From contig OX387187.1 of the NCBI GenBank assembly GCA_947561395.2, forward strand, positions 27,013,829 to 27,077,828: a stretch of 64,000 nucleotides of DNA, given 5' to 3'. The notes beneath the pieces were generated by a model. That model saw only the letters and a list, made by a program, of their open reading frames with translations, did no database searches and was not told the origin of the DNA. This DNA is from Buxus sempervirens. Lineage: Eukaryota > Streptophyta > Magnoliopsida > Buxales > Buxaceae. Position 1 is the first letter of the stretch. Every line of letters begins with the position of its first letter. Position numbers and translations under genes: made by a program. Shown one piece after another: positions 6,374 to 60,168 of the stretch.

Positions 6374-7530
6374 TCGATGCTTGTGTACAAAATTTATAAT
6401 ACAATAACTGTGGGTTATGAGCCATTAGTTGTGAGTTCAAAAATCTACTTTCACTATACTTGTGTTTTGTTTGTAGTCCCTCATGTTGAAATTGTCAAAA
6501 TTATGTTACTTGTCAGAGAACTAATACTAAACTTACTCAAAAAGAAATTAAGGTTGAGTTTTTCAACTCAATTAACATTGTCTTCCCTGCTGTTGTGTTA
6601 GGTTAATTTAATTAGAAGTGAGTTTCAACTTTCTTTTATGTTTCAGTGGTGACTTTAGGCCATTTTCATGGTGTCCAAAAACGATTTTTAGGAAAGAAAA
6701 GTAATTAATTTGGTAACTACAACGTTGGATTTCCCACTCAAAATGCTCAAAAAACGTGTGAAACTAAATTGATTTTTCCATTTGACCAGAACATATCATA
6801 CCACATAGACTTAATATATGATTTTGACCATCATTGTTCATCCGCAAGATAATATTTGGTTTCTATTGGGGTGGGTTTGGTTAGGATTTAGGTTATTCAA
6901 CAACAAGAAATCAAATGAACAAAAACACAACCAAGAATCAGTCGTAGGTTTCAGGGGAGTTTGGGGAGAAATCAGATGAACAAAAAGCACAAGTATAGGT
7001 TATTCAACAACGATAAATCTACTATTATCTTCTCTAATTTTTTCTCAACAGCCTCTCATTTCTTCTATCCAAAGACAACAAGAAAGAGAAGGAAACAAAA
7101 CAAATATCAGAACACGAACATAGCAATTAGTTGGAGGTTTCAGGGGAGTTGGGGGAGATGTTGCGATTAAGAAGTGCTTACCTTTCCAGCGGTTGGAGAA
7201 GAGAACAATCAGCCGTACGTTTCAGGAGATTTGGAGGAGACGCTGCGATTGCTTCTTGCTTTGTTTATCTCGTCTGAACAATGCCTATCTCTCTGAACAG
7301 CAAGGTCGAAAGAGAAGCTTCAAATGATAGAATCACCTCCCTCTCTTTCTCGTCTAAATAGTGGCAGCTTCTTCCAACAATGGCTGGAAGGAGAGAAGCT
7401 TTCAAGGAGGAAGACGAGCCTTCACAGTTTGGGGTCGAGATGCTTTTCGGGTTCTTCGCGCGTTTTTGTTGGGAGAACTTTCTCCCCAAATCTATCGTAT
7501 TTTCATTTCCTCTGAAATGACCAGGTTTTT
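6374..7530. other. Non-coding region with degenerate direct repeats
   Basis: No convincing gene. A motif close to GGTTTCAGGGGAGTTTGGGG recurs at about 6946, 7135 and 7208, with neighbouring words such as GGTTATTCAACAACRA at about 6890 and 7000, suggesting old tandem duplication. A stretch at 7440-7500 can be read as a weak match to the BAHD N-terminal LSPxIY motif, so the first BAHD exon may start here in decayed form. Function is not inferred. Confidence 0.4.
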
Positions 7531-7684
7531 AGAGGGAAAAATTTTGGAGGAGGGAAAGAAAATTTTTGATCAGATTTTCTTTCCTTTTCTTTCAATATTA
7601 ACCTTCTTAGTTAATACCAAACAGGGGAAAGGAAATATTTGCAAGTTTCTTTTCTTTTCCTTCAAATTCCAAGGAACCAAACAT

Positions 7685-8177
7685 AGCTTAAGGAAATCCC
7701 TCTCGGAAACCCTAACTAGATTCTACCCACTCGCCGGAAGAACCAAAGATAACTCCTCAATTGAGTGCAATGACAAGGGGGTTCTTTATATAGAAGCACA
7801 AGTCATCAATTGCCACCTTATGGAGTTCCTCACAGATCCTGATCTCAACTTACTGAATCATTTTCTTCCATTCGACATTAATCACAGTTCCATTGATGTA
7901 TAGTTAGCTGTTCAGGTAAACAACTTTGACTATGGAGGAATGGCTTTGGGTGTCTGCGTCTTGCACAAGATAGTCGATTGTGTTACACTCAGCACGTTCG
8001 TTAACGCTTGGGCTGCTACCACCGCTCGAGCGTCAAATGAAGAGGTGGTACTGCAACCCAGTTTCATCTCTGCATCTCTCTTTCCTCCTAGGGATTTTTT
8101 AAATGGGTTTATGGTGAGTATCTCAAAATTGAAATATATAGTTAACTTCATTACAACAAGATACGTGTTTGATGACT
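7685..8177 (+). pseudogene. BAHD acyltransferase pseudogene, N-terminal half
   Basis: BAHD enzymes transfer acyl groups from CoA thioesters in plant secondary metabolism, usually in the cytosol. This part reads SLSETLTRFYPLAGR, typical of the family, and then the catalytic HxxxD motif as HKIVD (7964-7978) followed by TLSTFVNAW. It ends at TTRYVFD, where the solo LTR at 8178 interrupts it. An in-frame TAG lies at 7901-7903, just before LAVQVNNF. Upstream of 7685 the homology is lost: a sequence ending AACCAAACATAGC next to TTA resembles the right end of a PIF/Tourist-type MITE inserted at TTA, and may have displaced the first 60 or so residues. The closest subgroup by motif wording is the vinorine-synthase-like clade (inference). 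The gene continues at 10903. Confidence 0.85.
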
Positions 8178-10897
8178 TGAAAGGTCCTAGTCAATCTTAT
8201 TTTGAAACTTTGACAAAGACGTTAGAGTCTTTGTTTTATTGCATTTTAAGTGGAGGTGGTATGGGATTTGTGTGCATGAGCACACACCATATAACACCTC
8301 ATGTCTCTTTAGATCAAAAAGAAATTGATGGCTAAGATTTAATCATCTTTATTGAAGGACTTTTAGAGTGAAGAAACCCTAAAACATATTGTTGGTGGCT
8401 GCAACAGGTTTTGGACTGTTGCTAGGGTCTTGGAGAAGAAGAAGGTGGGGGAAATTCAACTAGTGTTGAGGTAAGTAGGTTAATCAACTTTTTATGATTA
8501 TTTGCACTTAATCTTCTAGACTTCTTCTACTTTTTCATTCTTAAATCTTCTGATTTGAAGTTCACGAACCCTTCTTGTTGTACACGAAACCCTTCTTCGT
8601 TGAGAGTTCAAGGTTCTTTATTGTTTTTAATCAAATTGGTTACTTTCTATTGATTTAAATTTAAATGGTCATGATCGAATGAAGCATGTGGGGTTGCTTG
8701 ATCGATGGCATGACATGGGGTTGCTTTTGAGACAAATTGCTTTGTAATAGTGAAAAGGTGTGAATATTTTAGAGAGAGTGCTTGCTTTCAGACAAATTAC
8801 AGTGCAACAGTGAATGGTGTTTGGTTCGTTCTTTGCATTTTGTGTTTGTAGAAGAATTCACATTGTTGTGAATAATTGTGAATTGGGTATATGCTAAATT
8901 ATATTTCAATTTGAGTTGTAGGAAAAGCAATTTGGGTTGTTAACTTGTTATCCATGCTTATAGAAACCTTTAAAACATTGAATATTTTATGAAATTTTTT
9001 ATTTGATTCCGTTGAATGATGGTTGCAGAAACTTTGTTGAACCTTTAAATATATATATTCATTGAATATTTTATTAAAACATATGGGTGAGGACCGAATG
9101 CAACGTAGTTAATCATGGATTATTTTATGAAAATTTTTTTATAAGGTAGTGGCGTCCGTCCTATTCACAGTCTTTTGCTTGTAAAAAAAAAACAAAAACA
9201 ATTCGGATTGTTCTAGTTATTTTGAAATTGGGGTTATGCAGAATTATAATTCCATTTGAGTGTTATGCATGCTTATAAATTAGGGCGGATGCAGATTTGT
9301 AATTCATTTTGAGTGTTATATGGTGTAATGTTGGTTGAGTTGATAGTATTTTGAATTGAATTTTTTAGACAATGGAATCAAAGAATGATTGTTTCATATT
9401 TTCATGTATTGAATATAACAAAAGTCATATTGGTGTAAATATATGTAAATTGGGGTACTTTCATGATTACAATTTAAAATTTGGGTATTTGGGGTTGTGT
9501 TGGTTAATGAGTTGAAATTGTAAGTTTCAAAGTGTATTTATATATGTTTAACAGTGAATGGGTTAATTCTTGAAACACAAATATGTTACACAGAATGTGG
9601 AATGTCAAGTTCATTTTATGATATACTTGTGAACTCTATGATCATATTAATGATCCTATTAATGGAACAACATTAAATAGACTGGCATACTTTAGCATGT
9701 GTATACCTAGCGTGACACTAATCCGCTGGATGATTGACAGACCCATTGGAGGTGGTTAATATTTTACCTAATCCATGGTGTTCTGGAAAAGGGTGAGCCG
9801 AGTACTCTACCCTAGACAATTAATGTGATCGGTTCCCTACATGGTGTTCACAACTGCTTCGAAGGTTGGAATTCCTGGGGTTTGAGTCCCTTAAATTAAA
9901 ATAGTTGGGGACCAAGGAACCCTGTGGGTTGCAATACCCTAAACCCCATACGAGTACTCATGGGAATGCGGGAAAGTTTGATCCTTGTTGATCGCTAAAG
10001 TGGGATCCAAGGGCATTTGATCCTAGCCATAAGTTGGATCTCTCTAGCAGCGTGCTTGACTGTAAGACCGTCTAGATTTGATTGGGGAACCAGGTCATGT
10101 TAATTGTGTATAATTGTGTATAATTGTTTATAATTGTTATTAATTTAAAAAGGGATGAGTGGTGGAAATAAATTACATAACTCTTTTATATTCCAGTTTA
10201 CTTGCATGCTATTGCATTTGCTTGCTTGATTATTATGTTTCTTAAATGTTTAAAATTTATTATTACATCTCTCGTATCTGGCTACGTTATGGTTAAATTG
10301 TATTCTGTTTAAATTGTTCTATTAATCTTGTTTCTATTAGAAAAGCATGTTCACACATTAGTAAAAATAAATAAGTTAGTACGCTATCGTTTATAAACAA
10401 AACCATAGGAAAAACATAGCATGGTTATCTTTATAAATATATATTAGTATTGTGTGTAATTATATTAAGATAAAGAGGCGCAGTGCATTTAATCATATAA
10501 GGTAAATTAGCCCTACTTACTGGGCTTGTGAAAACTCATCCATTTCAATTTTGCAGGAAATAACCATAATCGGGGAAATGGAAGAAAGTGAGATATGGGA
10601 ATTCAGGATAGCGTTTTATGAGAATTGAGAATTATTTATAATTTAATGTTAGTTGCTTTTATATGGTTGTGTAAACTGTGACATCGGTATTAGAGTATGT
10701 GACTTCGTCTTTTAGAATTTGGTTCATGTAAGGATTAAAAGTCTTTAATTTCCGCTGTATTCTGGATTTGTGTTTTTTATTTATATATGCAATCCTTGTG
10801 TTAGAATGTGTGTATTTGGGTTTTGCTTACGAGCAGGGTCACCTTCAGCCCTACGCTTGTATAGTCATACACAGTGTACGGATTTCGGGGCGTGACA
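8178..10897 (+). mobile_element. Candidate solo LTR, 2720 bp, inside the BAHD pseudogene
   Basis: Removing 8178-10897 plus one TSD copy restores continuous BAHD homology from VFD to ESNIKALK. The insert begins TGAAAGG and ends TTCGGGGCGTGACA, giving TG...CA termini. The flanking pentamers are TGACT (8173-8177) and TGAGT (10898-10902), 4 of 5 matching. The 3' terminus resembles those of long Ty3/gypsy LTRs; the 5' terminus does not mirror it, so the exact start is less certain. No coding sequence seen. A stretch rich in GGGTTTGAGTCCC and GGGATCC words (9700-10080) resembles LTR R/U5 sequence. Confidence 0.6.
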
Positions 10898-10902
10898 TGA
10901 GT

Positions 10903-11595
10903 CCAACATAAAAGCCCTCAAGTTGAAAGCAAGCATTAATGGCGGCTTTATTGACAAGCCACCCACAACTGTAGAAGTGATTTCCGCGCTCATTTGGAGA
11001 TCCGCCATGGCTGCATCTCGGGCGAGACACGGGGGGAGTACTCCGAGGCCATCAAAGGTGGCACACGCAGTAAATGTTAGAGCAAGGACGGTGGAGCCCA
11101 TGCCACAACATTCTATGGGGAGCATAATTACGTTGGCAACTGCTTATTCTTCCACAACTGGTAGTGATGATGATGAGAAGTTGTCGTTGCATGGGTTGGT
11201 GCGTCTGGTGCGAGAAGCCACAAAGAGGATCAATGGCGACTACATAAGGAAGTTAAAAGGTGTGGATGAGATTGGGACCTTGATGCTTTGGGAATCGTTT
11301 AGAAAGGGGGCCGAGTTGTTCGATGATGATGCAGTGGATTGCTACTGGTTTACTAGCTGGCGTGGGTTCCCTCTGTATGAAGCTGATTTTGGGTGGGGCA
11401 AGCCTCTGTGGATAAGCAGCGCTAGTTTTCCTAAAAGGAATTTTGTCACTTTAATGGAATGCACAGGCCGTGATGGAATGGAAGCTTGGGTGACTTTGGA
11501 TGAACGTGAGATGGTCTTTTTTTGACAAGGATCATGACATGCAAACATTTTCTCGGAAAAAATATTCCTGCAACCTTGTTGCAGCGAGGCTGTGA
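10903..11595 (+). pseudogene. BAHD acyltransferase pseudogene, C-terminal half
   Basis: Continues the BAHD reading as NIKALKLKASINGG, then VISALIWRSAM. It contains the second signature motif of the family, DFGWGKP (11384-11404), and then ASFPKRNFVTLMECTGRDG. Near the C-terminus a run of seven T at about 11517-11523 shifts the frame (six would be in frame); in the other frame the reading goes on through KYSCNLVAARL to a stop at 11593-11595, a normal BAHD ending. Both signature motifs therefore survive in this locus, and the disabling lesions are a stop, a frameshift, the inserted LTR and loss of the N-terminus. Confidence 0.87.
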
Positions 11596-30320: not shown

Positions 30321-30475
30321 ATGTAAGCTGCAGCATTTGAGTTATCGGCACTTTACTAGAGAGGTCCAAGGAATAGTTAGTGGCTTAGCCACCCTCAGGT
30401 GGGTGTGGATGCATGGCTGCTAGTCTGACAAACCTCTTTCACATCACTACAAAATTTTGGAGGATTAGTGGCGAC

Positions 30476-30511
30476 TTATTACCTGCGGTTTCACGAAACC
30501 GCAGGTAATAA
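30476..30511. repeat. Perfect 17-bp subterminal palindrome of the CACTA element
   Basis: Arms at 30476-30492 and 30495-30511 are separated by AC. Subterminal repeats in CACTA elements are TnpA-type binding sites; that role is inferred here. Confidence 0.85.
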
Positions 30512-30599
30512 CGTGTACAGGGGCGCTCCTCACCCGAGCGCCCGAAAACCCACAATTGTCACATTTCAGGTGGCATTTTAACGGCAGTTATTTAGTGAA

Positions 30600-31828
30600 G
30601 TGCCGTAAATAATTTTAGGTGCCCGCCGATGATACTTCATCAAGACCCTTGTTCTCCTCTCCAAATCGAATGGATGAATAGAATGAAGGTCCTGCATTTT
30701 CCCATTAACAAGAATAGAGCGAAAATCCTAAAATCTCGTAGAGAGCCTAACCAAGCTACTTTTGTAAGCTTGATTTCGTTTCAACCTTGAGGCTTCTCTG
30801 TTCTGATTGGAATAGAAGAGCAAGATAAAGTCGAGCAAGATAAGGTCGATCGATCTCGGTTTCACTTGCAGCCAATTAGGTTTTCTCACTCATGTCTTTA
30901 TTGTTGTCTTAATTTGCTTTTGCTTCTAATTTCTTCTTTCCATCTGTCACCACAGATTTGATTGGAATAGAAGAACAAGACAGGGTCGATCAATCTCAGT
31001 CCCACTTGCAGCCGGACATGGTGAGGAACAATGGAGTGTTAAAAACTTATTGCAAATTTAATTATTTAATATTATGTTATTTAAATAAATTGTTCATAGC
31101 ACGAATACACACACGTACATGTGTATTCATCCTTGTGCGCAACCGGTGATTTGCGAAACCCTTGTTGCTGGCTTGCAGTTCCCCGTTCAGTGATCATCAT
31201 CAATTTCTGTAAATCTCGTGTTCGAACACTTCCGGTAAGATGCTCACACCTTTTAACTCTTCTCCTTTCTGTTTTTTTTCTTTTCTTTCTGAAATTTTCT
31301 CATTTTAATTTGGCCCTTATTTTCCCACCATCGTGGCTGCTCTCTCTTTCAGCTCACTCTTTCTTGCGTATAATCTTCATTCTTCGGTGGTAGGAGCACG
31401 TTGGATATCTTGATTCTTCGATTTTTCCCTTTTTGTTCTCACTAATTTTTCTTTTTAATGTATACCGTTAATGGTGTCGGTGTTTTTGGGTTTCCGTTGC
31501 CTTTGTCGATGCATCGTTGGCTTCTTGTTCAACCATTTAGCTTAAATCGTGTCTCGGTCGAATACTGGGGACCTTCTGAATCTCCTGTAACTGTTGCAAA
31601 AGTAGTAATTCTACTTTGGGGTTTTGATTTACTTAAATGAAATTATTTTCGGCAATTTATGATTAGTTTTTGGAATTCTCATCTACCAGGAAGGAGTTGT
31701 TTATTTAGAATGATTGAATGCTATCTTTGTTGGCTAATGTGGATGAGGACGCATATGGTTTGAATGAGGAGGTTCAATGAAGATCAGGAATTGAAGGATG
31801 TGGAATGGGGTTAGTATGAGAAAGGTGT
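30600..31828 (+). other. CACTA interior, left part: leader-like sequence with an internal duplication
   Basis: Non-coding, with UTR- and intron-like composition. A segment of about 65 bp recurs: GATTGGAATAGAAGAGCAAG at about 30799-30870 and GATTGGAATAGAAGAACAAG at about 30959-31015, each followed by GGTCGATC and CACTTGCAGCC. The short ORFs at 30958-31149, 31121-31393 and 31458-31640 have no family signature. Confidence 0.45.
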
Positions 31829-33429
31829 TGTAAAACCCCGGATTTTCCTAAAATAAAATAAATTAAATAAGCCTAAATATTGAGAAGATAGGTATTAATC
31901 TAAGTACATTATATGGTTAAGATTGATGTGAATAATAAAGAGGAGAATTTTTGGAAAAAGATTCAAAGGTTAAGTATGGAATTCCAAGGAAAAGGTATTT
32001 TAGTCATTTCCCAATTAGCCAAATTAAGATATTGAGTAAGTAAATAATTATTAGACTTGAAATAATTAGCTAGACTTAATTTGGGTTAGGTTTGGATTTA
32101 AATAGCAAATTATTGCTTAAAAGTACAAAAAAGGGTATATTGGTGATTATGGTTGATAAGGAGCCTTAAGTTTGAAGATAAAAGGTAGCTTTAGGGTGTT
32201 TTAGTAATATTTTAAAATAAGAAATTTAATTAGCACAAAAATAAATTAAAATAAATCCTTCTCTTATATATAAGACTTAAAAGAGGAGTTAGAAGGAGGG
32301 TTAAGATGGGGAGATTTCCAATTAAGAGTGAGAAGTCTATTTAGAAGTTTTCCTAAACCTAGTAGGGTTTCTACTTAAGAGAGCTTATAAAAGGAGAAGT
32401 CTAAGAAAGGTTTAGGGTTTTTAGCAAGTCCAAAAATAAGGAGGAAAGAGGGGAAAATTCGTGCTTGGGTTTGGGAGAAGAATAAAGGAAAGAATAGAAG
32501 AGAGAAAAGAGAGGGAAGAAGGGAAAAAGGGAGGTGCTGCAGAGGTCCGACCAGCAAACTTTGAGCGACGATCTCCGGAGATCTAGTCGTTGGATCATCA
32601 TGAAATTTGGAGGTTATGATCTATACATGAGATGCTTAAATCTGAACGGTGGAGATTGGATTTGGATGAGTCTAAGGTGGTGCGAATTAACCCAGAAGTT
32701 GGTGGAAAATCGGATTTTGAAAGCAAAAGGAGTTGCAGGGATGGCCGACTAGTCAACTTCGAACGGGGAGATATAAAGATCCAACCGTTGGAATGGGCTG
32801 CAATTTTAGGATTTTGTTCTACTCATGGAGGACTTCAAATTGAACGGTGAAGATCAAAATTTGAGAAGTTTAGAGGGGTCCGGTCGAGCTCCAAAAACGT
32901 GCACAGAAGATGTTCGGAAAAATGTGGGTTCATCAAAAAGGCAAGTAGCAAACACTTGAAACTGGAGGAATTGCATATTTTCTTGTGTTTTGATGATTGA
33001 TCGTATTGGTTCTTAAATTTGATTTCATTGGAAAAGTTAGATGTTTATAAAGTTTCGATTTGGAGATTTGAATCCTTTTTTAGAAGCAAGAAAAATGTTA
33101 TTCATGGGTGGGTTGAATTAGAAAGAAACCCTAGTTAAGTTTTAATTACCAAGATGTGAGTGGCACTGTTTTAAAACCTGGTTTAGTTTATTCGTGGATT
33201 TGGTTTGAATGAATGCATGGTTATTGAATGAATTGTTCTTTGTATTTCTAGGCAAAGACAGTCTGAGGGGTTTTGGTACAATAAATTGGGGATAACTTGG
33301 AAACATGTTAGATTAAATCCAAATTAGGTTTGAATGTGTTCTGGGGGTATTGGGAGACTAGAGAAGTAGTTACAGACCGGAAAAATCCAGCCAGAGTTGG
33401 AGTTTTGGAATTAACAGAGACCTGAAAAA

Positions 33430-33690
33430 CGCAGTGGGTCACCGCTCACTTGGCGCCCACTTAGCGCCCACTTCGGTAGTAGGCGCCCAGAAAATTTGAC
33501 CTGGCGCCGAGCTCGCGCCCACTCAGCGCTCAGCTCGCGCCCACTTAAAACTCTCGCGCCTACCTCTCGCCCTTCTCGCGCCCACTCATCCTCGAGTGAG
33601 CGCCAACCCTAATTTTGATGAGTTGAGCACCGCTCACTCAGGGCTCACTTAGCGCCCACTTCAGGAAATGAGCGCCTAGTTCATTTTCTT
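33430..33690 (+). repeat. GC-rich island of GCGCCCAC / GAGCGCC modules in the family-B LTR
   Basis: A dense run of short variants of GCGCCCACT and GCTCACTTAGCGCC within an AT-rich LTR. Equivalent islands occur at 960-1075, 35625-35870 (-) and 58310-58580 (-). Confidence 0.85.
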
Positions 33691-34007
33691 GCTGAATCTC
33701 ATAATTTAGTAAAACAAAGGGGTTTTTGGATGCTAGAAGATCTTCGACCACTTACCAAAGTATTTATTTACAACCTTAGAGATAAAAATTTACTTATGAG
33801 AACATTGAAGATAGGCCCTTGGATTTCGTAAAAGCTTATGAAGTAGATGTTGGGAAATAATTAGGTGATGTTCGGGATATCAAAACACTGGGGCTTTATT
33901 TTAGTTCTCTTGAATTATACACTGTACGGTACTTGATTGAGATTTATTAAACCCTGTTTGATGGCAAGTTTTGAATTAAGTTGCAAAGATTATTTACTTG
34001 ATTTCTT

Positions 34008-34097
34008 GTGAGTTGATGTTCTGGTTGGAACACTTGTGTGAGTTGATGTTCTGGTTGGAACAATGGTGTGAGTTGATGTTCTGGTTGGAACAACTTG
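34008..34097 (+). repeat. 30-bp unit, three tandem copies
   Basis: GTGAGTTGATGTTCTGGTTG starts at 34008, 34038 and 34068. The sister LTR (57122-60168) has about two diverged copies, so the third arose here recently. Confidence 0.9.
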
Positions 34098-34259
34098 TGA
34101 TGTGTGTACTAAATGCGGAGTTTTAATTGGTTATTTATCGGTTTTGGTTTAGCTTGTCCTGGATCCAGAGTCTAAGCTTAGTAATGTGATGTATATGCTT
34201 TATTGGTATAATGGCATGGCCATGGAGTGTTGCCACGACCGGTGTAGAGCAGCCAGAAA

Positions 34260-36574
34260 TGTAACGCCCCCGATCCGAGTCACATGAAAACCCGTAACCC
34301 GTATCCGGCGGTTATTGAAATTAACAGGATCGCACTACCAGAGTAAAGAAAACATGAACTAAATAATGTTGGGCATCACAGTACGCTAAACAATCCCAAA
34401 ATAAAACTCACATGACCAAATTTCACTACCCGCAATTATCGGCTCTCCATACGTATCTGAAAAAAACAAACAGAAATAAAGAGTGAGATACGAATATCTC
34501 AGCGAGTAGCACATGCATGCAGAAATACACATCTTCAAATTTAAAAATTCCATGATCGAATAATCAGATGAGAAAACAAGGAAATAACCGGTGAAGTCTA
34601 TGTACCCCTTTTTAAGATATTGTTGACCCCAGAGTATAGGAAGCCATTTAAACTATACGCAGTTAACATCGGTAATACCTTGGTCAACAAAACCCAGATC
34701 AGTTCCAGAAAACATTATCGTTATAATCCATGCTTAAACAAGACAAATTCCACTACGTATCCCATGGTATTCCAACTGATAAATAAACAACAAATCCACA
34801 TGGTCAATGTCATACAAATATTTGATTGGTTAATCAACATGCCAGAGTGACCTCCACACCTCCATGTACACAATTCCGGCCTACTCAGGGTTTCGGATAC
34901 TCTGAAATGACGGCCTACTCAGGGTTTCGTTATCCAATGCCGGCCTACTCAGGGTTTCGACATTGACAACCAGGCCTACTCAGGGTTTCTGGCTGCTCTA
35001 CACCAGTCGTGGCAACACTCCATGGCCATGCTATTACTCCAATAAAATAAAAGCATCACATTACTAAGCTTAGACTCTGGATCCAGGACAAGCTAAACCA
35101 AAACGGTAAAACATCGTATAATCTCAATTCCAATATCAAAGTAAAACCATTCATTCCACATCATGTAAAACCCATCACAGTTCATCACCTGTCCCTCTGG
35201 ACCAAGCAGTACCTCAAGTACTTTCAGTATTTTCTCATTTCCGTAACACATGCCATTTGGAAACAAAACTCAATTCATTCATACCAGGGAAATCTTTACA
35301 ATACATTTAAAGTTTCCAAACAAGCGAAACCAGAATATAATAATTCCTCAATCAAACAGTGTATAAAACAGAGGAAATGTAACTAGTAACTCTTAGTGGT
35401 TTGGTATCCGGCACAACACTCATGAATAACCTAAACTCCACTTGGAAGCTTTTAAGAAGTTCACTAAATTTTCCTCTAATAATTTCATAGGCAAGGTAGA
35501 TTCCAAAGTTCCCAAACAAGTGAATAGTGGAGTGGTTTAACCCTCAAGTCACCCAATTACTCTTGGTTAAATCAAAATTTCCATTTCAGTAAGTATAATA
35601 GGGTATGTGCTCACTTCTTGAATGGGCGCCAGATGAACGCCGGTCGGCGGTAAGAAAAACAGGGTAAAATGTACCTTGCGCTCACTCGATGCTAAGTGAG
35701 CGCGAGATGGGCGCGAGTTGAGCGCCGGGTTCGCGCGAGCTGAGCGCCGGGTTTTCGAGTGCGCGCGAGCTGAGCGCCAGGTGAGCGCCAGCTCGGCGGT
35801 AAGTATAATTTTAACTGGGCGCCTACCTCCTAGGTGAACGCAAGGGGGCGCCAGGTGAGCGGATACCCACTACGATTTTCAGATCTCTGTTATTTCGAGA
35901 TCTCCAATTCTGGCTGGTTTATTTAGGTCTGTTATTGCTCCAATACCCTCCTAATACTCCCAGAAGACTTCCCAATCACTTTTGGATTTAATCTAAACAC
36001 ATTTAATTTCAAGATAAATTTAAATCTCCGACTCTGTTTCATGTCATTCCAGAAAACCAGAAAAACTCAGAGATCGCTTAAATACAACCATGCATAAGAA
36101 TAAGCTCGCGAAAACATAGAACACAAAACCCCAGATGTAAATCAGTGCTACTCACCTCAGTATTGAGACCTTCTTCAAACTTCCGGCCATCCTAGGGATT
36201 TGACTTCGAGACCTAACCCGCTGGACTGCCGCCCTAACTTTCTCCCGAGCAGCAACTTTTCCCAAATCCCCGAAAACATATAGGAGCTTCCTATTTATAG
36301 ACATCGCTAAGGTTTGACCTAATTTCCCTTTCATCCCTCGAATCCCTTTTATACCCCTCATTAATGTAGGGTTTTCCCCGGATCTTAACTATTTAACCGA
36401 TTCTTATTTATTTCCGGGTCTGAATGTAACTTACCTATTTATAGTTCCACTTCAATTTCTTTAACACTAATGAACCACAAATTCTTAGCAATAAAGATTT
36501 TTTTTTTTGACTGTAAATTTATTTTATTCTATTATTATTATTATTATTATTTTTCTCAAAACTGGGGTTTTACA
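34260..36574 (-). mobile_element. Solo family-B LTR, second subfamily, 2315 bp, nested, TSD AGAAA
   Basis: Inserted in the opposite orientation into the outer family-B LTR, within its AGTAGGCC array. On + it runs from TGTAACGCCCCCGATCC (34260) to GGGGTTTTACA (36574), between perfect TSDs AGAAA (34255-34259 and 36575-36579). It has the same block order as its host (GGCCTACTCAGGGTTTC array at 34880-34990, GGCGC island at 35625-35870) but diverged sequence and a shorter U3 with an (ATT)n tract (36530-36555). Confidence 0.94.
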
Positions 36575-37196
36575 AGAAACCCTGAGTAGGCCTAGTTGTC
36601 AGTGCCGATACCCGGAGTAGGCCGGCATTGGATGACGATACCCTGAGTAGGCCGGAACTGTGTACATGGAGGTGTGGATGTCGCTCTGGCATGGTTGATT
36701 AACCAATCTAAGCAACTACATGACATTGACCATTCGATGTTTTATCGGTATTGTTATTGAAATATGAGTTGATAATAATAATGGGATTTGATTTAAACTT
36801 TGGAATTATCCTTGTTAATGTTGTTGGTTTAATCGTACACCTCATCACTTATTTTGTAAACATGGACTGATTTCATGCATGCACCTTGCTACTTGTTGAG
36901 ATTTATTCTCACTCTGGTTTCTCCCATTTTTCAGGTACTCTTGGTGAGAACGTCAAGTTGTGGGCTAGTTGTAGCTGGGTAGTCTATATAGATGTAGGAT
37001 TGTTCATATAATTGAAACTTTTTTTTATATTATAATTGTTGATTAATAAAGAGAATTTGAATTCCAGTTTCAGCTTTTACTCTGATTATAACGTTAGAAA
37101 AAGTTTTAAATTATTCCATATTTTAGTTGCTTTTGTTGCTTATCATAACACCTCGGGTTTTGGGAATTGGACCCGGAACCGGGGCGTTACAGGTGT

Positions 37197-38093
37197 TGTG
37201 TTGCTATTTCTAGTATTAAAGTCATATTCACTTATCTTAGAAACGTCTTCTTCTTTTTCTCTCTGTTGCAGCTGTGCTTTTCAGTGGTGGAAAAAGTTTC
37301 CTCTTTAGTGGAATACTCTGCCTCCAGAGGGTGACAATATGATCCTCTTGTAATGACCTCTATATTGGAATGCTGAGCTTGGGGTTTTTAGTGTGCTTTA
37401 TGTTTTAACCCCTCCTTTGAAAGTGAAACATATTTTTGTCAATCACTGATTGGTTGCTCAACCATTTAGCTGTGTCTTACAATCCTTCACTATTTGTTGA
37501 AGTTTCTTTTAACCATGTGTACCATATGGTCAGATTAATGGTCTTGAACAGTGCTGAAAATCTTGAGTTCTCACTTATGTTTGGTCTAGTGATAGTTACT
37601 GTATTGTTTTTTATTCCTTACTAGAATTCTAGATATGGCTCTAAGAGGCTTATGGCGGCCATTTTATTTCTGCTGCATCTCTTTCTCTGTGTTTGTTTCC
37701 TTGTGTAAAGCTGTGAACATTGTACGATAACAGTGTAAAAGATGGTGCTAGGAAAGTTAGGGATAAAAAGCATTTCAAGTTGGTTACTTTTACATTCGTA
37801 TTCATGGTGACCATGATCAATTTTAAGTGTCTTTGTTTGTTTAGGCCCATTACAAATCTGTTGTAGAAATGGATCTTTTGTATTTGATTTAAGTGTATAA
37901 TGTAATGCATTTTTTTATTTTTGATCCTGTTTAACGTTAACGAAAGTGTATCTCGGATTGTATATTCTGTTGTATTCATTTTCGTAGATTTTTGTTTTTG
38001 TTTTATTCCTCTGGAGTTGTTATCGTAATAGGTCCAATTTAGTGCATGAAGTTGTAACTGAAGTTGAATAATTTCATGCTCCTGGGATTTCAG
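37197..38093 (+). other. CACTA interior, probably captured Aux/IAA intron sequence
   Basis: T-rich, non-coding, ending in a good acceptor (TGGGATTTCAG) at 38093 just before the captured exon. It is plausibly the first intron of the Aux/IAA donor gene. The minus-strand ORF at 37650-38216 is mostly an antisense artefact of this intron and exon. Confidence 0.45.
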
Positions 38094-38595
38094 GGCAAGG
38101 GTTGTGGGTTGGCCACCCGTCCAATCATTCCGAAAGAACATTCTGGCTGTCCAGAAGAGCAGTATTGATGAGAGCGAGAAGGTGAACAGCAACGCTATGT
38201 TTGTGAAGGTTAGCATGAATGGTGCACCTTACTTTCGTAAGGTAGACATAAGGATGTACAAGAGCTACCAAGAGCTGTCTGATGCCTTAGGCAAGATGTT
38301 CAGTTCTTTCACCATTGGTAAGTAGAGAACAACTTTTACTTTAACCTCATTATTGTGTTATGGAATAAACAGCCCTTTTCTATGTTCTTGTTTCATTTCA
38401 CTATAATTTTGATCTTAGTCAGAAATTTATTTTGTTTATAATGAGATTATACACTGAAGGTCACTGCGGGTCTCAAGGAATGAAGGATTTCTTGAATGAG
38501 AGAAAGTTGATAGATCTTTTGAACAGTTCAGAATTTGTGCCCGCATACGATGACAAGGACGGCGACTGGATGCTGGTTGGCAATGTCCCATGGGA
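38094..38595 (+). pseudogene. Captured Aux/IAA gene fragment (degron and PB1 domain)
   Basis: Aux/IAA proteins are nuclear repressors of auxin response: they bind ARFs through a PB1 domain and are degraded through a GWPPV degron that binds TIR1/AFB with auxin. Exon A (38094-38317) reads [13 protein letters not shown], then [18 protein letters not shown] and [19 protein letters not shown], ending at a GTAAGT donor. Exon B (38460-38595), after an AAG acceptor, reads [19 protein letters not shown] and [16 protein letters not shown], ending at GTAAGT. Domain II, the PB1 basic Lys and the acidic DxDGDW cluster are all present and both exons are open. Domain I (LxLxLPG, with its TOPLESS-binding motif) and the final exon are absent. 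The fragment lies inside a CACTA element, so it is a captured copy. The family call is very firm. Confidence 0.9.
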
Positions 38596-39330
38596 GTAAG
38601 TTCTTCATCCCATAACAAGATTAACCTCAACGGATTATGTAATTTAGTATAAACCCATCTTGACAAACCTTAAAGCATGAATGTTTTATCCTTTCAGCAG
38701 TTATCTTGCAGGCAAATGTAATCTTGTTGGCTTGCTTTAGCTTATTCATGAAGATGAAACGGTGATCAGTTTGGGTTTTACCAATTAATCTCTTAATAAA
38801 TTTGATAGAAATATACTCTCACCATGATCGTTTAGTTACATTTTATGACTCATCCTTTGATGCTACTTTGTCTTTTCCAGATCACTGAAGTGCCTTAGAA
38901 GGTAAGGAAGCTCGTTGTAAAGGTATGCGATGTGGTGACAGACAGATGATGCCGTGAGATTCGACGAGAAGGTTGGAAAGGGAGAGAAGAAACTGATGAA
39001 ACTTAGGAGATCAGTACAGTTCCTGATCACAGAAATCCCCTCCCCTATCACGTATGCTCCTAATGACACTGGTGGTAGCTTCCTCAAGAGAAGTGAGAAT
39101 ATTTACGAGTCTATGAATGCGGAAGACACAAATGATGCTTCAGTCACAGTTAATGATTGATTAACCATCTATGCAGCTTTAGCTTCTCAAAATACTCAAA
39201 TGGCTGTGGTGGATAATTTGCCCTCTTTGGTAAGTGTGTATTTGATGGGGATGACCTGAAGGTTTTAAATTTTGTTTTTTGGGCATGCGTAGATGCGGGA
39301 GCCCTTGACCCATTTTTTTAAAAAATAAAA
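38596..39330 (+). other. CACTA interior, right part, with a second unrecognised exon-like block
   Basis: After an intron-like gap, an acceptor-like CTTTTCCAG (38872-38880) precedes a block of about 290 bp with coding-like composition. An open frame at 38954-39160 reads MRFDEKVGKGEKKLMKLR, then ITEIPSPITYAPNDTGGSF. It does not match the missing Aux/IAA terminal exon and I do not recognise it. It could be a second captured gene or the remains of a transposon ORF. Confidence 0.4.
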
Positions 39331-39624
39331 AATGCATTTTTTATTACCGGCGGTTCTAAAAACGCCGTTTAAAGCGCCGCAGATACAATCTGCGACGATC
39401 GATTCAGTGGCATTCTTGAAACCGCCGGTAATTAATTTATCGGCGCGGTAAAGGCCAATTTGTTAGTAGTGCATGCTTGAACAAGAACAATGAAACATCA
39501 TTAGAATCATTAAAGAGTGGGTGTGTACAGTAGTGATCAAATCAGAGGCTTATTTATAGTCATCCATTATGAAAAATAAGCTAAAACCTAAGCTTAAATA
39601 AAAGACTGAAACAAGTTCAGTTGT

Positions 39625-49192: not shown

Positions 49193-49906
49193 ATGGCCAT
49201 GAGTGATACAACTTCTAGTCCCGTTAATGAATGGATTCAGTTGTATCGCCGGACGGCGGTGGCGGGACAAGCAGCGCCACCAGTGCGTGGTGGTGGTTCA
49301 TCGGCGGTAACCATGTTCGGCGGCCAAGTCTTGGACGCCACCGTGGTCACGACCACCACCACCTCTGCCAGCCCACCAAGCCCTCTAGGTACAAGCAACT
49401 CTGGTGCAACTTTGGGTCATTTGAACCCCGACGGCCGAGTATCGAAACCACCCCGGCGGAGGTCGAGAGCTTCTAGGAGGACTCCCACCACCCTCCTCAA
49501 CACAGACACTACAAATTTTCGAGCCATGGTGCAACAATTCACCGGCGGTCCGAGCGCATCCTTATCCTCAAGGTCCCAAATTGGTGCACCAAATCTCAGT
49601 TTCGGGGTCGAGGGGCATCAACAACATTTGAACACAGCTTCTTTCATGGTACCTTTTAATTATCATCAACAACAGCAACAGCAGCCGCAGCAGCAACAAC
49701 AACAACAGCTGCAATATTATCAGCAAGAGCAATATATCTCTCCAATGAACAGAAACAATACTGGTGAGGTATTCCTTCCAAGTTTCAACAACCCCAGATC
49801 TAGTTTGGAGAATACTGAAGGCTTTTTCATGGAGAATGTTTCCTCACTTGCTCTTCCAAGGACAGCTTCATCTAACGATAACAGGAACAATGGCTACATC
49901 TTGTGA
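49193..49906 (+). CDS. VQ-motif protein (VQ22/JAV1-like group), intact
   Basis: Small nuclear co-regulators that bind WRKY DNA-binding domains through FxxxVQxxTG. This intronless 237-residue protein has a basic, NLS-like KPPRRRSRASRRTPTT stretch (residues 85-100), then the VQ motif FRAMVQQFTG at 109-118, then a Gln-rich tract (about 158-180, coded by mixed CAA/CAG). It also has SP/TP sites (SPPSP near 60) of the kind MAP kinases phosphorylate. The SRASRRTPTTLLNTDTTNFR context places it with Arabidopsis VQ15/VQ22/VQ24-type proteins; VQ22 is JAV1, a jasmonate defence repressor, but orthology is not proven. The first ATG (49193) is used; a second in-frame ATG lies two codons on. Length and single-exon structure are normal for the family. 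It is the only gene here that looks functional. Confidence 0.93.
   Translation: MAMSDTTSSPVNEWIQLYRRTAVAGQAAPPVRGGGSSAVTMFGGQVLDATVVTTTTTSASPPSPLGTSNSGATLGHLNPDGRVSKPPRRRSRASRRTPTTLLNTDTTNFRAMVQQFTGGPSASLSSRSQIGAPNLSFGVEGHQQHLNTASFMVPFNYHQQQQQQPQQQQQQQLQYYQQEQYISPMNRNNTGEVFLPSFNNPRSSLENTEGFFMENVSSLALPRTASSNDNRNNGYIL
49665..49725 (+). repeat. CAA/CAG repeat encoding the Gln-rich tract
   Basis: Imperfect trinucleotide run within the VQ gene, interrupted by one CCG. A likely length polymorphism that keeps the frame. Confidence 0.85.
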
Positions 49907-57121: not shown

Positions 57122-60100
57122 TGTAACGCCTCGGTTCCGGGTCCAATTCCCAAAACCCGAGGTGTTATGATAAGCAACAAAAGCAACTAAAATATGGAAT
57201 AATTTAAAACTTTTTCTAACTTTATAATCAGAGTAAAAGCGGAAACTGGAATTCAAATTCTCTTTATTAATCAACAATTATAATATAAAAGGATTTCAAT
57301 TATATGAGCAATCTTACATCTATATAGACTACCCAGCTACAACTAGCCCACAACTTGACGTCCTCACCAAGAGTACCTGAAAAATGGGAGAAACCGGAGT
57401 GAGAATAAATCTCAACAAGTAGCAAGGTGCATGCATGAAATCAGTCCATGTTTACAAAATAAGTCATGAGGTATACGATTAAACCAACAACATCAACAAG
57501 GATAATTCCAAAGTTTAAATCAAATCCCATTATTATTATCAACTCATATTTCAATAACAATACCGATAAAACATCGAATGGTCAATGTCATGTAGTTGCT
57601 AAGCTTGGTTAATCAATCATGCCAGAGCGACATCCACAGCTCCATGTACACAGTTCCGGCCTACTCAGGGTATTGGACACTCTGAAATGACGGCCTACTC
57701 AGGGTATCGTCATCCAATGCCGGCCTACTCCGGGTATCGGCATCGACAACCAGGCCTACTCAGGGTTTCTGGCTGCTCTACACTGGTCGTGGCAACACTC
57801 CATGGCCATGCCATTACACCAATAAAGCATATACATCACATTACTAAGCTTAGACTCTGGATCCAAGACAAGCTAAACCAAAACCGATAAATAACCAAAT
57901 AAAACTCCGCATTCAGTACATACATCACAAGTTGTTCCAACCAGAACAGTAATTCCTTACAAGTGTTCCAACCAGAACATCAACTCACACAAATAAATAA
58001 TCTTTACAACACATTTCAAAACTTGCCATCAAAGAAACAGGGTTTAATAAAATCTCAACCAAGTACAGTATTTAACCAAGAAAATTAAAATAGAATCTTC
58101 TAGTATTTGGTATCCAAACATCACTTATAAATAACCTAAACTTATCCTTGGAAGCCTTTAAGAATTTCCACTAAATTTTCCTCTAGTAATTGAATAGGTA
58201 ATGTAGGTTCCAAAGTCCCAAAACAAGTGATTGGTTAAGTGGTTTAACCCTCAAGTCATCAAAAACCCCTTGGTTTAGTCAAAATTCCAATTCGGTAAGT
58301 GTATTAGACTATGTGCTCACCTCCTGAAGTGAGCGCTAGGTGAGCGCCGAGTCGGCGGATAGAATTTAGGTTAAAATTCGACTATGCGCTCACTCGATAT
58401 CAAGTGAGCGCCAAGTGGGCGGGAAGTGGGCGCAAGGTCGGCGCCAGCTTCGCGCGAGATTCGCGTATCCTTTTTAAGTGAGCATGAGCTGAGCGCCAAG
58501 TGGGCGCCAGCTCGGCGGATGGTGTATTTTTAAAAGGGCGCCTACTACCTGAAGTGAGCGTCAAGTCGGCGGATACTCACTGCGATTTCCGACTCTCTGT
58601 TATTTCCAGATCTCCATCTCTGGCCGATCTTTTTCGGTCTGTAATTATTCCAATAGTCTCCTAATATTCCCAGAATACTTCCCAACCAGTTTTGAATTTA
58701 ATCTGAACACATTTCTATTCAAGTTGTAATTTACTCTCATGCTCGGACTCATGCTATTCCAGAAAACTCAGAAAACTCAGAAGACAACCATGCATCAGAA
58801 TACATTCACGAATAAACTTAAAACCTCAGTTGTATATCAATGTTATTCACATCTTGGTAATTAAAATTTAACTAGGTTTTCTTTCTAATTCAACCCACTC
58901 ATGAACAACATTTTTCTTGATTCTTAAAAAGAGATTCAAATCACCAAATCGAAACTTTATAAACATCTAACTTTTCCAATGAAATCCAATTTAAGAACCA
59001 ATACGATCAATCATAAAAAACACAAGAAAATATGCAATTCCTCCAGTTTCAAGTGTTTGCTACTTGCCTTTTTGATGAACCCAGATTTTTTAGAACATCT
59101 TCGGTGCCCTTTTTGGAGCTCGACCGGACCCCTTTAAACTTCTCAAATTTAGATCTCCACCGTTTAATTTGAAGTCCTCCATGCGTGGAACAAAATCCTA
59201 AAATTGCAGCCCATTCCAACGGTTGGATCTTTATATCTCACCGTTCGAAGTTGGCTAGTCGGCCATCTCTGCAACTCCTTTTTCTTCCAAAATCCGATTT
59301 TGCACCAACGTCTGGGTTAATTCGCACCACCTTAGACTCATCCAAATCCAATCTTCACCGTTCAGATTAAAGCATCTCATGTATAGAGCATACCCTCCAA
59401 ATTTCATGACAATCCAACGACTAGATCTACGGGGATTGTCGCTCAAAGTTTGCTGGTCGGACCTTTACAGCACCTCCCTTTTTCCTTTCTTCCCTCTCTT
59501 TTCTTCTTTCCTTTATTCTTCTCCCAAACCCATACACGAATTTTCCCCTCTTTTCTCCTTATTTTTGGACTTGCTAAAAACCCTAAACCTTTCCTAGACT
59601 TCTCCTTTTATAAGCTCTCTTAATTAGAAAACCCTATTAGGTTTAGGAAACCTTCTAAATATACTTCTCACTCTTAATTGGAAACCTCCCCATCTTAACC
59701 CTCCTAATTCCTCTTTTAAGTATCTTATATAAGAGAAGGATTTATTTTTAATTTATTTTCGTGCTAATTAAATTTCTTATTTTAAAATATTACTAAAACA
59801 CCCTAAAGCTACATCTTGTCCTCAAACTTAAGGCTCCTTATCAACCATAATCACCAATATACCCTTTTTCCTACTTTTAAGCAATAATTTGCTATTTAAA
59901 ACCAAACCTAACCCAAATTAAGTCTAGTTAAATATTTTAAGTCTAATAATTATTTATTTAATCAATATCTTAATTTGGCTAATTGGGAAATGACTAAAAT
60001 ACCCTTTCTTTAGAATTCCATACTTAACCTTTGAATCTTTTTCCAAAAATTCTCCTCTTTATTCTTCACATCAATCTTAACCATATAATGTACTAGGATT

Positions 60101-60168
60101 AATACCTATCTTCTCAATATTTAGGCTTATTTAATTTACTTTATTTTAGGAAAATTCGAGGTTTTACA
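57122..60168 (-). mobile_element. Solo family-B LTR, 3047 bp, TSD ATAAG
   Basis: Runs on + from TGTAACGCCTCGG (57122) to CGAGGTTTTACA (60168), between perfect TSDs ATAAG (57117-57121 and 60169-60173). It is nearly colinear with 31829-37191 in reverse complement, including the AGTAGGCC array (57655-57770), the GGCGC island (58310-58580) and the U3 end. It inserted into the MULE. The ORFs at 57074-57277, 59185-59370 and 59379-59597 are LTR sequence, not genes. Confidence 0.94.

Follow-up and report, generated by a model that had tools for sequence, protein, structure and literature searches.

A Pack-CACTA element carrying Aux/IAA exons and pieces of other host loci in Buxus sempervirens

Introduction

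The closest described parallel to the element reported here is Tgm-Express1, a 5.7-kb CACTA transposon of soybean containing five unrelated gene fragments, which contribute their exons to spliced, chimeric transcripts (Zabala and Vodkin 2007, PMC1947982). The grapevine CACTA element Cactavine-5 has a PPR gene piece downstream of its transposase and in the opposite orientation (PMC2528002), AP2 gene pieces lie within CACTA elements of Chenopodium (PMC8978399), and a review describes capture through the joint excision of neighbouring elements (PMC13317346, citing Catoni 2019). Here we describe a non-autonomous CACTA element at 30445..39471 (+ strand) of a 64-kb stretch of the Buxus sempervirens genome (C9:27013829-27077828; hereafter the window), which carries exons of an Aux/IAA gene.

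The Buxus element and Tgm-Express1 are both multi-kilobase members of the CACTA superfamily with five host fragments that include exons and introns; they differ in host and in the genes concerned (here Aux/IAA, the upstream region of an F-box gene, and hexokinase), and the Buxus cargo is present in at least seven copies and known from DNA alone (PMC1947982). It resembles Cactavine-5 in carrying part of a host gene, although no transposase was recognised in it and its readable pieces are in the sense orientation (PMC2528002). Relative to the Pack-TYPE elements of PMC8903248, it has a ladder of shared deletions, a surviving older long form, and sisters with other cargo; such cases may be described in that paper too. 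No published example of Aux/IAA captured in CACTA or Pack elements was found in titles and abstracts, where the slash spelling may escape matching, and this is weak evidence of absence.

We conclude, with a probability of about 95%, that the feature is a Pack-CACTA element containing pieces of five host loci, later copied to at least seven places, in which the Aux/IAA piece is most likely a non-coding passenger. The element fits Pack-CACTA in every testable feature, namely its ends, 3-bp target-site duplication, subterminal repeats, lack of a recognisable transposase, identifiable donors, and movement as a unit. Gene capture by CACTA elements is a known process, and the Aux/IAA element is a new member rather than a new kind. 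The ends and donors of a gene-capturing transposon, its older long form, and its amplified, shortened variants all remain readable in this one genome, which makes it possible to reconstruct in what order capture and deletion took place. The element also illustrates that a captured fragment of an auxin repressor can spread without visible constraint, and annotation pipelines could be misled into scoring its copies as genes of the Aux/IAA family: the seven element copies together account for 14 of the 59 PF02309 matches genome-wide.

Ends and internal structure of the element

The 5′ terminus, CACTACAAAATTTTGG, starts at 30445 and the 3′ terminus, TTTGTTAGTAGTG, finishes at 39471, flanked by a target-site duplication CAT on the left (30442..30444) and right (39472..39474). 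The terminal inverted repeats read CACTAC at both ends, with looser similarity extending to ~17 bp. In the window, 30445-39471 is the sole CACTAC...GTAGTG pair with a spacing of 1-12 kb and identical 3-bp flanks; such ends alone are not decisive, because at least one pair of this kind also occurs in 14.5% of 200 first-order Markov resamples. Subterminal palindromes at 30476-30511 and 39340-39435 have the common core ACCKGCGGTT, which is absent from 2,087 bases of the element middle and has two sites with two mismatches in the F-box stretch. The first palindrome lies within the 5′ end module of the family (30445..31016, +), which has 87-93% identity to the three sister elements that were read, and the second within the family 3′ end (39284..39471, +). 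Termini, CAT duplication, and palindromes were all named in an earlier note made from the letters of the window, and all are present.

The 9,027-bp span includes a later solo-LTR-like (long terminal repeat) insertion of 5,363 bp (31829..37191), with TG...CA ends and a 5-bp duplication GGTGT, inside which lies a second TG...CA insertion with a 5-bp duplication AGAAA (34260..36574). Copies of the element on C1, at C4 57.69 Mb, and at C14 24.23 Mb have an empty site for the outer insertion at the exact base, and the C4 28.20 Mb copy aligns across the insertion point. The element itself is thus 3,659 bp, being 9,027 bp minus the insertion and one copy of GGTGT, in agreement with the 3.66 kb given earlier. 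A relative of the outer insertion (82-92% identity) without the inner one lies at 57122-60163 on the minus strand, also TG...CA, with the duplication ATAAG on both sides, and further related fragments are found at 1588-2695.

No transposase was recognised in six translations of the element, namely the spliced pair of exons and five of the reading frames listed for the two element parts, among which some short frames were not included; only Aux/IAA was above the Pfam cut-off among these six. Rfam and tRNA scans of the window gave no matches.

Copies across the genome

A 581-bp probe spanning the Aux/IAA exons was used to search the whole genome (676.5 Mb). Over the exon region, eight loci reach at least 93%: seven lie in elements and one is a fuller gene (C22, 95%). 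Besides these, the probe matches a paralogue on C15 (75%) and a short piece, 55 bp, on C22. The element copies are those in the window, at C4 28.20 Mb, C4 57.69 Mb, C1 6.71 Mb, C14 24.23 Mb, C14 21.27-21.28 Mb, and C8 23.58 Mb, so the further copies that the earlier note proposed to look for do exist. Four of the seven have both ends and a matched 3-bp duplication, each duplication being different: CAT in the window, TGT at C4 28.20 Mb (where the 5′ end reads CGCTA instead of CACTA), ATT at C4 57.69 Mb, and ACA at C14 21.27-21.28 Mb. Three siblings cut end to end measure 3,742-3,767 bp (the last base of the C1 copy was placed by eye), and whole-copy identity is 96.6-97.6% among five copies, those at C14 21.27 Mb and C8 being left out.

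Captured fragments and their donors

Between its family ends the element consists of five pieces, all on the plus strand. The first (31014..31826) derives from sequence preceding the coding start of an F-box gene that belongs to a C10 cluster of related loci (89-91% in two blocks), and any promoter or leader role for it is putative. The second (37192..37974) matches C21 at 2.0715-2.0731 Mb (93.6-94.6% in four blocks); its first five bases, 37192-37196, are the right copy of GGTGT, and its first part also occurs at C8 19.33 Mb and C3 54.04 Mb. The third (37989..38817) runs from within intron 1 to within intron 3 of the C22 Aux/IAA gene, taking in exons 2 and 3 and intron 2, with 95.4% identity over exons and introns. 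A hexokinase piece follows (38815..38940; C3 16.66 Mb, 92%), with alignment overlaps of 3 bp on the Aux/IAA side and 2 bp on the other. The fifth piece (38939..39283) has a relative at C6 47.87 Mb (91-97%), and 39042-39153 is 87% identical to a locus at C9 43.44 Mb.

Pfam names three of the donors (Aux/IAA on C22, F-box on C10, hexokinase on C3); the C21 and C6/C9 donor loci were located, and Pfam gives them no name. The C21 exon adjoining the captured piece has no Pfam match and a best PDB E-value of only 0.97; it reads like an RPL18a-like membrane protein, an assumption of ours that Pfam and PDB do not confirm. The fifth piece, in the frame at 38939-39157, likewise has no Pfam match, and its best PDB E-value is 0.11. 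Loci related to the upstream region of the donor F-box gene form a cluster at C10 26.39-26.64 Mb.

At the Aux/IAA donor (C22 24.470 Mb), similarity to the element breaks off sharply at positions corresponding to 37989 and 38817. The gene there has four exons in order: exon 1, which contains ELRLGLPG, then exons 2 and 3, then exon 4 MFVDSCKRLRIMKGSEAIGL (the last exon is provisional). Within the 9.9 kb read at this locus, neither a CACTACAA-type 5′ end nor a full 3′ end nor the subterminal core occurs, and the locus therefore looks like an ordinary Aux/IAA gene. That other fragments have donors separate from the Aux/IAA donor supports the Pack-CACTA reading. The good form of the two exons and their correct splice sites would suit an ordinary, degraded Aux/IAA gene adjoining unrelated repeats, but the Aux/IAA piece stands at seven places, four with both CACTA ends, and the fuller gene lies elsewhere. 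The region 37200-39300 would on that explanation be collinear with an Aux/IAA locus, and only 37989-38817 matches C22, the rest matching other loci; with the seven copies, the matches to multiple donors, and a C22 gene with exons 1-4, we reject it as extremely improbable.

The cargo could instead have passed through an mRNA intermediate, as might be suggested by stretches at the C21 and F-box donor loci that are missing from the captured pieces. These stretches, however, join at overlaps of 5-9 bp, and the C21 and F-box pieces that were kept have not been demonstrated to be exons. The Aux/IAA piece brings intron 2 along with its exons, plus portions of introns 1 and 3, and was therefore not taken from mRNA, which excludes retro-capture for that piece; for the cargo as a whole, we regard it as very improbable.

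Sister elements and a possible autonomous partner

The family ends are widespread. A 5′ probe (30445-31020) gave 59 matches among the best 40 of 99 candidates scored, and the 3′ end (39284-39471) gave 52 among the best 40 of 83; these are not counts of elements, several matches being internal repeats or additional pieces of a place already matched. Two sisters, at C9 5.66 Mb and C11 10.96 Mb, are ~97% alike over shared stretches and contain NF-YB exons and a leucine-rich-repeat-like (LRR-like) piece. The first NF-YB exon matches PF00808 (1.1e-6), and the second, with no Pfam match, we take to be NF-YB as well; the LRR-like piece scores 1e-5, below Pfam cut-offs, and recurs in full length at five places and in part at several more. 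Three frames scanned in a third sister (C8 14.0 Mb) gave no match. Matched duplications flank the sisters at C11 10.96 Mb (GAA) and C8 14.0 Mb (TTA), and the 3′ end of the C9 5.66 Mb sister is altered. CACTA transposase genes are abundant in the genome (the best 150 of 520 candidates were considered), and at C10 18.645-18.655 Mb a CACTA transposase frame with an internal stop is followed by the 3′ end of this family.

Coding content and constraint of the Aux/IAA piece

The copy of exon 2 (38094..38317, +) encodes the degron VVGWPPV and the first half of PB1, and that of exon 3 (38460..38595, +) encodes PB1 up to VPWE. The two are in frame, in line with the proper splicing given in the earlier note, and their spliced translation matches PF02309 with E = 7.2e-56 and IAA17 in PDB with 2.5e-38. 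In Aux/IAA proteins, VGWPPV is the degron and LxLxL is the Domain I repressor motif. The degron, claimed previously together with PB1, is present in the captured piece, but PB1 (domains III and IV) is incomplete, the captured coding sequence ending at VPWE without donor exon 4. Domain I is absent: ELRLGLPG sits in donor exon 1, outside 37989-38817. In the window copy, a crude scan for an upstream in-frame ATG behind a GTRAG donor site found none for the exon at 38094, and splicing of exon 3 into the hexokinase exon, by eye, is out of frame and meets a stop within a few codons.

The changes in the copies fit neutral drift. Deletions cause frameshifts in two of them (C8 and C14 21.27 Mb), and at C4 57.69 Mb the first acceptor AG is gone from its usual place, an AG lying one base further on. 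Values of dN/dS (the ratio of non-synonymous to synonymous substitution rates) between the donor and the seven copies are 0.39, 0.44, 0.61, 0.61, 0.76, 1.13, and 1.56, with the two frameshifted copies compared by alignment column and gapped codons dropped; the value between the donor and the C15 paralogue is 0.04. Counted as distinct events in six copies (without C14 21.27 Mb, and with C8 only before its deletion), there are 11 synonymous, 23 non-synonymous, and no stop changes, against 27/69/4% expected under a neutral model with assumed weights (p = 0.57); the share of neutral sets without any stop would be 0.956^34, or ~0.22. Among the 28 pairs formed by the seven copies and the donor, exons are more divergent than introns in 24 and less so in four (C4 28.20-C4 57.69, C4 28.20-C8, C4 57.69-C8, and C14 21.27-donor), with exon bounds off by 1-2 bases.

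The Aux/IAA piece is thus most likely a non-coding, decaying passenger, to judge from its pattern of changes, and it probably does not work as a repressor. The earlier suggestion that the element could spread an auxin-signalling module is unsupported, because Domain I and the end of PB1 are absent, the crude scan found no upstream start, splicing into the hexokinase piece soon meets a stop, and the changes resemble neutral ones.

If transcribed, the piece could be spliced as Aux/IAA exons 2-3 are and could yield chimeric transcripts, or small RNAs that match the donor, but no repressor. A functional outcome would then lie either in interference of a PB1-only peptide with auxin response factors or in silencing of the donor Aux/IAA gene by small RNAs. 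The splice sites of intron 2 and the donor site of intron 3 are intact in all seven copies, five of the seven are open through both exons, and the F-box upstream region lies at the 5′ side in sense; the window copy also shares 21-base words with the donor (73/204 in exon 2 and 35/116 in exon 3). The neutral substitution pattern, the lack of an upstream start in the crude scan, the out-of-frame hexokinase junction, the two frameshifted copies, and the displaced acceptor at C4 57.69 Mb all argue in the other direction, and we consider an expressed chimeric product unlikely.

Several observations weigh against a Pack-CACTA with non-coding cargo. To the five open copies can be added the private events, which lean slightly toward synonymous (9 versus 12, or 9/21; p = 0.15), a non-significant hint against full neutrality. 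The C1 copy has TTT at its left and an eroded 3′ end, the 5′ ends of the C14 24.23 Mb and C8 copies were not recognised, and no empty paralogous counterpart of the site that the window element occupies turned up. Donor identities are 87-95%, and an unseen closer paralogue may be the true donor of some pieces. Nor did we find an autonomous partner with both family ends; of the two, the transposase-bearing relative at C10 18.65 Mb shows only the 3′ one within the 9.9 kb that were read.

Order of capture, deletion, and amplification

The copies form a ladder of lengths. The longest, at C14 21.27 Mb, has an additional 871 bp between the F-box and C21 pieces, which continues at either end into the sequences of the two donors, and a further ~260 bp near 39031 that is present in C6 too. 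The C14 24.23 Mb copy is without the 871-bp stretch and retains the ~260-bp one; the latter is also present in the C8 copy, the 5′ half of which was not found. Both stretches are lacking from the window, C1, and the two C4 copies. In a tree of the Aux/IAA piece, the C14 21.27 Mb copy groups with the donor (support 0.957), the other nodes being weak (0.73-0.76). A locus at C3 45.57 Mb, which the 581-bp Aux/IAA exon probe does not match, has the family 5′ end and an F-box piece with the same extension as the long form. We read this as capture having come first, with internal deletion and amplification later.

The following course of events explains these data best. A CACTA element without a recognisable transposase acquired, between its ends, pieces of five host loci, each presumably taken as genomic DNA; capture was probably by joint excision of neighbouring elements, followed by shortening through deletions at short repeats. 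Copying was presumably driven in trans by a CACTA transposase encoded elsewhere.

Orientation of the cargo

The least expected feature is that all seven fragments that can be oriented are in sense relative to the family 5′ end, five in the window element and two in the NF-YB/LRR sisters. Five were oriented by Pfam (the LRR piece below cut-off) and two (C21 and C9) by unmatched open frames; were orientation random, all would agree with a chance of 1 in 64 for the seven and 1 in 16 for the five based on Pfam, a tally decided post hoc. The numbers are small, and the uniformity could reflect chance, selection against antisense cargo, or a habit of building expression cassettes. The last of these would have the family place a host upstream region at the 5′ side, as the F-box piece is in the window element, followed by sense fragments of regulatory genes (Aux/IAA here, NF-YB in the sisters), the cargo being transcribed and spliced instead of silenced and elements with antisense cargo being lost; it seems to us unlikely.

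Other features of the window

Two reading frames at 7361-11525 (+) match the Transferase family PF02458, and we take them to be of the BAHD type. A 237-codon reading frame with a VQ motif (PF05678) lies at 49193-49906 (+).

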